A DNA stretch of 54,346 nt from a bacterium (GTDB taxonomy: Bacteria > SAR324 > XYD2-FULL-50-16), in NCBI GenBank assembly GCA_024275165.1, contig JAJRZQ010000008.1:1-54346 (forward strand), given 5' to 3'. The notes beneath the pieces were generated by a model. That model was not told the DNA's origin. It saw only the letters and a program-made list of their open reading frames with translations, and searched no databases. Below, one piece after another: positions 51,583 through 54,346 of the stretch; position 1 is the stretch's first letter; the number at the start of each line of letters is the position of its first letter. Position numbers and translations under genes: made by a program.

Positions 51583-52863
51583 ATGATCGACCCGAAAACC
51601 TTAAGGGAGGCCCCCGAGCTTGTCGCATAGAGTTTAAAAAAGAGGGGAAACCCAATGGATTTAGGCCCCCTCTTGGCGATGGACGCAGAACGGCGAAAGC
51701 TCATGGTGAAGGTGGAAACCCTACAAGCGGAGCGCAAGCGCAATAGCCAAAAAATTGGGAAAAAAGAGGTCGCGGGGGGGGGGCTGCAAGCCTTGATCGA
51801 GCGCACCAAGGCTGTTGGGGGAGAGATTAAAGAGTTGGATGTTCAGCTCAAGGAGTTGGCGCTCGCCTTTGAGCAGGGTATGTTATCCCTGCCCAACCTC
51901 TTAAGCGACGCGACCCCCTTTGGCACCAAGGAAGAGGATAACCCGATGATCCGCTCTTGGGGCGCGCCACGAGCCTTTTCGTTTGAGCCGAAGCATCATG
52001 CCGATTTAGGCGAGTCCTTGGATATTTTAGACGCTCCCCGCGGGGTGAAGCTCGCCCAGAGCCGCTTTACTTTGGTGAAGGGCGCCGGGGCCAAGCTGGA
52101 ACGGGCCTTGATTAATTTTATGCTGGACCTGCATACGCTGGAGCACGGTTATCAAGAGGTTCAGCCGCCGCTGTTGGTCAATGCCCAGACCATGATGGGT
52201 ACGGGCCAATTGCCTAAATTCGAGGCCGACCTGTTTAAAACGACCGAGGGGTTGTATCTCATCCCCTCGGCCGAGGTGCCGGTGACGAATATTTATGCAG
52301 ATGAAGTCCTCCCCGAAGAGAAATTACCTGTTTATTTCACCGCCTATACCCCCTGTTTTCGTTCTGAGGCGGGCAGTTATGGGAAGGATACCAAGGGCTA
52401 TATCCGCCAGCATCAATTTAATAAGGTGGAGTTGGTGAAGTTTGTCAAACCCGAAGAGAGCGACGCGGAGTTGGAAAAGCTGGTCGCAAATGCCGAAGAG
52501 GCGCTAAAGCGTTTAGAACTCCCCTACCGAGTGGTGCAGCTTTGCAGCGGGGACTTGGGGTTTTCCGCTGCCAAGTGTTATGATATTGAGGTCTGGATTC
52601 CTTCGGAAAACCGCTACCGAGAGATTTCTTCTTGCTCGAATTGCACTGATTTTCAAGCGAGGCGGGCCAAGATTCGCTATAAACCCAAAGAGGGGGGCAA
52701 GCCCCGTTTGCTGCACACCTTAAACGGTTCGGGTCTGGCCGTGGGCCGCACCCTGGTGGCGATTTTAGAGAATTACCAGCAAGAAGACGGCAGCCTGTTG
52801 ATCCCTCAGGCTTTACAGCCTTATCTAAAAGGGCTAACCCAGGTTAGGCGCCCAAAGCGATAA
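51583..52863 (+). CDS. serS: Seryl-tRNA synthetase, with an in-frame TAG near its N-terminus
   Basis: Class II synthetase for tRNA-Ser. The frame starts [15 protein letters not shown], the normal SerRS start, but codon 16 is TAG (51628-51630), where homologues commonly have Glu (VAESL). It continues [23 protein letters not shown] into the coiled-coil arm, then motif 2 ([18 protein letters not shown]) and motif 3 ([19 protein letters not shown]). The next ATG (51655) has GAGGGG 8 nt upstream by chance of the coding sequence and could give a 402-residue protein lacking 24 residues. serS is essential, so error, reinitiation or suppression must apply. Confidence 0.93.
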
Positions 52864-54077: not shown

Positions 54078-54165
54078 GGAGGGTTGGCCGAGCGGTTGAA
54101 GGCAACGGTCTTGAAAACCGTCGAGTGTTAAAGCTCCGTGGGTTCGAATCCCACACCCTCTTCCA
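54078..54165 (+). tRNA. tRNA-Ser (anticodon UGA)
   Basis: An 88-base tRNA with a class II long variable arm. The D-arm TGGCCGAGCGGTTGAAGGCA, anticodon loop CTTGAAA (anticodon TGA) and T-arm GTGGGTTCGAATCCCAC are all normal, and CCA is encoded. The acceptor end is odd: G1 faces U72 as a wobble and the discriminator is U73, whereas bacterial tRNA-Ser usually has C72 and G73. Confidence 0.93.
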
Positions 54166-54183: not shown

Positions 54184-54273
54184 GGAGAGATGCCAGAGAG
54201 GCCGAATGGGGCAGATTGCTAATCTGTTGTTCTCGCAAGGGAACCCGGGGTTCGAATCCCCGTCTCTCCGCCA
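54184..54273 (+). tRNA. tRNA-Ser (anticodon GCU)
   Basis: A 90-base tRNA with a long variable arm. Acceptor GGAGAGA pairs with TCTCTCC, discriminator G and encoded CCA follow. The anticodon stem-loop GCAGA-TTGCTAA-TCTGT gives anticodon GCT. It lies 18 bases after the first tRNA-Ser and is probably cotranscribed with it. Confidence 0.93.
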
Positions 54274-54346
54274 GTATTTTTGTTTTCCGCCGGGAGCGCC
54301 ATCGGTTCGCATCCCCGTCTCTCCGCCAGTATTTTTGTTTTCCGCC
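54249..54346 (+). repeat. Direct repeat duplicating the 3' end of tRNA-Ser(GCU) at the window edge
   Basis: A 43-base unit at 54249-54291, made of the last 25 bases of the tRNA plus 18 downstream, recurs at 54304-54346 with one mismatch (T-loop A at 54255 becomes C at 54310). The window ends exactly at the end of the second copy. Such repeats mark integration sites of elements that use tRNA 3' ends, a decayed tandem tRNA copy, or an assembly break at a repeat. Confidence 0.85.

Follow-up and report, generated by a model that had tools for sequence, protein, structure and literature searches.

Introduction

Tandem repeats known as RtT in Escherichia coli are co-transcribed with a tRNA and yield small RNAs. 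In the tyrT-tyrV locus of E. coli K-12, a 178-base unit, present in 3.1 copies, begins precisely with the final 19 bases of tyrV, and the whole run measures 559 bases, i.e. 3 x 178 + 25; the Rfam family RtT (RF00391) matched this locus, used as a control, four times.

Repeated tRNA ends are also left by integrating elements. According to the Islander paper (PMC4383910), integration into a tRNA gene creates pairs of tRNA-end copies, and a classic site consists of the tRNA, a single displaced fragment and, between the two, the island together with its integrase. The same paper also describes tandem islands that share a tRNA, with 125 entries of two or more in Islander's table.

In the open-licence literature searched, we recognized no description of tandem tRNA-end arrays. 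The array reported here is of a kind already known from E. coli, and its sequence is unrelated. As in tyrT-tyrV, the units lie directly behind a tRNA, each of them carries the 3' end of that tRNA (the RtT layout), and the edges of the run fall at the tRNA end; unlike in tyrT-tyrV, the unit is 55 instead of 178 bases long, the tRNA end accounts for 25 instead of 19 bases, the tRNA is a different one, and foreign-looking DNA with an integrase trace comes after the array. Finding the same geometry, a run bounded on both sides by the tRNA 3' end, in a second case of unrelated sequence lends support to the view that arrays of this kind begin with a duplicated tRNA end and are enlarged afterwards.

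Results

The repeated end of tRNA-Ser(GCT)

The window, i.e. the whole stretch of DNA analysed, is the complete contig C43 (54,346 bases) of an incomplete assembly of 47 contigs and 2.69 Mb. The following features lie at its right edge:

54078..54165, + strand: tRNA-Ser(TGA) (ARAGORN), adjacent member of the conserved tRNA row, without repeated copies
54184..54273, + strand: tRNA-Ser(GCT), intact, CCA encoded (ARAGORN; Rfam tRNA, 52.3 bits), source of the repeated end
54249..54275, + strand: first copy of the repeated 27 bases, i.e. 25 bases from the tRNA end followed by GT
54276..54303, + strand: 28-base spacer between the first and the second copy
54304..54330, + strand: second copy; its C at 54310 corresponds to A at 54255 in the tRNA
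54331..54346, + strand: first part of a further spacer, which the contig end interrupts; the array resumes at C22:1-141

Positions 54249-54273 are the final 25 bases of the tRNA-Ser(GCT) gene and open a direct repeat of period 55 (54249-54291 and 54304-54346), in which 42 of 43 bases (98%) are identical, the A/C difference between 54255 and 54310 being the sole mismatch. The 43-mer, with up to three mismatches allowed, occurs twice in the window and in none of 100 dinucleotide-preserving shuffles, so that the 43-base repeat containing 25 bases of the tRNA end, first pointed out in an earlier note on this DNA, is real.

An ORF at 51655-52863, located some 1.2 kb upstream of the two tRNA-Ser genes, resembles a seryl-tRNA synthetase as judged by eye. 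Similar ORFs are also found beside the tRNA-Ser pair in two other genomes, G004 and G002.

The contig break and the continuation on C22

The end of the window coincides with the end of the contig, and the interruption at the second copy is an assembly break, as the earlier note had supposed. When the genome was searched with 54240-54346, four matches came up: the window, two places on C22 (5-102 and 115-141) and, identical to the repeated tRNA end, the end of tRNA-Ser(GGA) on C1. The further copies of the unit expected downstream were thus located on C22, the first 141 bases of which are a period-55 array (2.6 units, 100% matches) consisting of two full units and a final 27-base copy, with unique sequence afterwards. 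A 20-base spacer pattern (up to three mismatches) matched three times in the whole genome, all three times on C43 or C22, and the final 47 bases of C43 are the initial 47 bases of C22. We infer that the two contigs adjoin via the array; if they overlap by these 47 bases, three extra copies of the tRNA end are seen after the gene.

Because the right ends of C22 and C19 share exactly 141 bases, the assembler appears to have used k = 141. With this k, a period-55 run stays unresolved only from 196 bases upward, and since the exact run measures 20+55n bases, the total number n of extra copies, as judged from the assembler k-mer, is probably at least four, i.e. beyond the three seen. Short-read assemblies can break at such arrays, hiding the DNA behind the tRNA.

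That all copies lie at contig ends, and that the window ends with 91 and not 141 periodic bases, might suggest that the array is an assembly artefact. However, two contigs with different unique flanks bear the identical unit, and the exact 141 periodic bases of C22, together with the 141-base overlap of two other ends, are what a genuine repeat exceeding k would produce; we therefore give an artefact very little credence. The right end of C43, which has 91 periodic bases where the k = 141 logic predicts 141, perhaps reflects mixed continuations in the population. If the array were a living multi-site landing pad, whose tandem cores would let elements enter and leave beside an untouched tRNA and whose copy number would vary among cells, this end would represent mixed array states in the population, but we consider such a landing pad highly improbable.

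The right ends of C19 and C22 contain similar tyrosine-integrase genes, the first 141 bases of which are exactly in common. One of these two genes is near tRNA-Gly(GCC).

Run length and origin of the copies

From 54249, in the tRNA, to C22:141, the run measures 27+55n bases (A/C difference counted in), where 27 stands for the tRNA end plus GT, a sequence that bounds the run on either side. Every extra copy carries C where the tRNA has A and, because all of them share this change, the extra copies descend from one displaced copy and not from the gene repeatedly. The length of 27+55n bases, in turn, points to a pre-existing pair of 27-base copies, 28 bases apart, that was expanded later, since a fresh 55-base duplication would have produced a multiple of 55.

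This bears on the main and serious rival explanation, an ordinary minisatellite in which a 55-base segment that included the tRNA end by chance was duplicated and slipped, with no integration at this site and with the foreign-looking DNA present by coincidence. Slippage by itself accounts for identical units, and it is also in keeping with this explanation that a complete attachment-site pair was not found and that the integrase trace described below is weak. On the other hand, a minisatellite should measure 55(n+1) and not 27+55n bases, so that it would additionally take a 28-base deletion with its endpoint at the tRNA end, and tRNA-end arrays are rare in the genomes scanned. We regard it as possible, although rather doubtful.

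In these scans, which allowed a pattern gap of 15-45 bases and which a 178-base array of the E. coli type would escape, the tandem tRNA-Ser-end pattern was found in one of the 52 genomes of the phylum (the present one), and a slightly looser pattern in none of 291 genomes of another phylum. With the same gap, a generic tandem tRNA-end pattern matched two of the 52 genomes, the present one and G028, where the match, judged by eye, does not resemble a tRNA end, and none in two further genome sets (0/17 and 0/77).

The tRNA row in related genomes

The row Ser(TGA)-Ser(GCT)-Arg(GCG)-Ser(GGA) is kept in six of nine family relatives; Arg(GCG) comes directly after Ser(GCT) in seven of the nine, and in G009 the SRP RNA follows the four tRNAs. 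In the present genome, Arg(GCG), Ser(GGA) and the SRP RNA are found in this order on C1, and the row is therefore broken right after the repeated end. A tRNA array just beyond the contig end, one of the two possibilities raised earlier, is absent, and the rest of the ancestral row is on C1. Such breaks are not unique to the present genome, as Arg does not follow Ser(GCT) in G002 and G004 either; because no integrase was recognized at the broken rows of these two genomes, a broken row does not by itself call for integration.

The family relative G002 carries two full tRNA-Ser(GCT) genes on the same strand, 1.15 kb apart (C54, 1276-1365 and 2515-2604).

The DNA beyond the array

The GC content of C22:142-1970 is 38.8%, compared with 49.4% for the rest of the first 20 kb of C22 and 51.3% for the window. 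This tract of about 1.8 kb contains one orphan gene and a weak, frameshifted integrase trace, and gives way to ordinary chromosome, with a yaeQ gene (PF07152) on the opposite strand at C22:1971-2513. The orphan gene is a 329-aa ORF with no relatives among the 51 other genomes of the phylum and no match in Pfam, NCBIfam, PADLOC, plasmids, phages or viral contigs, and a blastn search of C22:1-2000 against phages and plasmids gave no match.

Behind the orphan gene, about 1.2 kb past the array, a frame near C22:1370-1430 on the strand of the tRNA resembles the N-terminus of DUF6538 (Pfam E 0.0032), with scores of 17.6 and 16.3 bits that are under the curated Pfam cut-off of 27. When a clade profile of DUF6538 was used (16 sequences, taken from 17 hits), this segment ranked first of 3300 with an E value of 0.026, which misses the inclusion threshold, and the adjoining segment C22:1416-1577 fitted the remainder of the profile (E 0.36). 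The two segments are probably the frameshifted remnant of the N-terminus of a DUF6538-type tyrosine integrase. The catalytic domain PF00589 is absent at the trace, the three hits in the genome being on C38, on C19 and at C22:56160-56720, and the 42 residues of the trace had no convincing match in phages or plasmids (best E 2). The tyrosine integrase anticipated downstream is thus represented by this trace, and no intact integrase was found.

In the incomplete assembly, the only further copy of the tRNA end found genome-wide was that of tRNA-Ser(GGA). Local alignment of C22:142-3000 and of C1:1-2147, each judged against 100 shuffles, revealed no degenerate copy; on C1, eight of the 100 shuffles attained the top score of 11. 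Because neither an intact integrase nor a displaced distal tRNA fragment was found, a bounded genomic island is not demonstrated at this locus; what stands of the island suggested in the earlier note is the foreign-looking, low-GC DNA. Its description of the locus as the classic geometry of an attachment site is not borne out in that wording, because the copies follow each other at 55-base intervals and enclose no gene, the integrase trace is outside the array, no distal fragment was found, and at least four tRNA ends, including that of the gene, follow one another.

A comparison with the islands described in the Islander paper (PMC4383910) gives a mixed picture. The direct repeat of the tRNA 3' end and a low-GC tract with an integrase trace 3' of the tRNA are shared features, and an intact tRNA with a same-orientation 3'-end fragment downstream is present; unlike in those islands, there are several fragments 55 bases apart and no distal one. 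Only 28-base spacers, and no integrase, separate the tRNA and the fragments, the trace being past the last copy, and no interval of 2-200 kb with a far-end fragment was found in the incomplete assembly. The locus would accord with the tandem islands of that source if a first element had shrunk to 28 bases and a second one, farther out, had decayed.

Genomic setting of DUF6538 integrases in the clade

DUF6538 (PF20172) gave 17 hits across the 19 genomes searched, of which 11 were positive. Nine of the 17 hits are preceded, at a distance of about 30-420 bases, by a tRNA or tmRNA of the same orientation, and one of these tRNA/tmRNA-linked proteins also contains PF00589; the other eight loci contain no tRNA. 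The present genome accounts for two of the hits, one downstream of tRNA-Cys (C28) and the other downstream of tmRNA (C14). The trace on C22 agrees with the linked integrases in its N-terminal domain and in being on the strand of the tRNA; unlike them, it is a frameshifted remnant, farther off and behind an orphan gene. No repeated tRNA end, and no array, was present at the tRNA/tmRNA-linked loci scanned.

The right ends of C28 and C14 contain DUF6538 N-terminal pieces, and a common 126-base repeat is near both.

Discussion

We consider the locus most probably a remnant of an integration event at a tRNA end, followed by multiplication of the short repeats. More specifically, we see about an even chance that the array is an att-type duplication of the tRNA end that was left by a decayed integrating element and then amplified through slippage or unequal exchange. 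The 3' end of tRNA-Ser(GCT) would have served as the attachment site of an element with a tyrosine integrase, probably a DUF6538-type one, and integration with later decay would have produced the direct repeat, i.e. two tRNA ends of 27 bases each, including GT, with 28 bases between them. Replication slippage or unequal exchange could then have turned this pair into a tandem array of 55-base units, which would have no function of its own and would join C43 to C22, with about 1.8 kb of decayed foreign DNA afterwards. The array itself, the break between the contigs, the units common to both, the low-GC tract and the broken row are observed directly; the att-type seed, the mode of expansion and the copy number are what we infer here.

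This att-type reading is favoured by the run of 27+55n bases, the shared A-to-C change, the broken row, the low GC content, the DUF6538 trace and the linkage of DUF6538 to tRNA and tmRNA genes. Against it, there is no displaced tRNA fragment past the trace; the trace is under both the Pfam cut-off and the clade inclusion threshold; its distance from the array, about 1.2 kb, compares with at most 420 bases from the tRNA in the intact cases; no tRNA end is repeated at the tRNA/tmRNA-linked DUF6538 loci scanned; and the rows of G002 and G004 are broken with no recognized integrase. Overall, the observation is larger than is visible in the window alone, but it is modest in weight.

By analogy with E. 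coli RtT, it is also conceivable that the repeats are co-transcribed with the tRNA to give small RNAs: the layout is that of tyrT-tyrV, and array and tRNA are on one strand. However, RtT (RF00391) had no match on the loci L001 and L004 with E values up to 1, folding was no better than that of shuffles (z 1.40 and -0.24), and an array present in one of the 52 genomes of the phylum is not conserved, so that a functional RNA array seems most unlikely. The Rfam search on L001 and L004 gave two tRNAs above the gathering score, and the three matches below it are look-alikes of antisense tRNA and sX4.

Alternatively, the element itself might have carried several tandem attachment cores, integration via one of them setting the whole array beside the tRNA. 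The extra copies share both the A-to-C change and the left flank, and an orphan tRNA-Ser end in G024 has the left flank CATC. Nevertheless, the core with the substitution, the spacer and the CATC-core pattern are all absent from viral contigs, no array was found in phages or plasmids, and none is present at the other DUF6538 loci scanned; we deem this origin improbable.

The orphan tRNA-Ser 3' end of G024 (C139, 209-238) is not part of a tRNA and is preceded by CATC as in the array; it may mark the distal boundary of an island in a different SAR324 genome.
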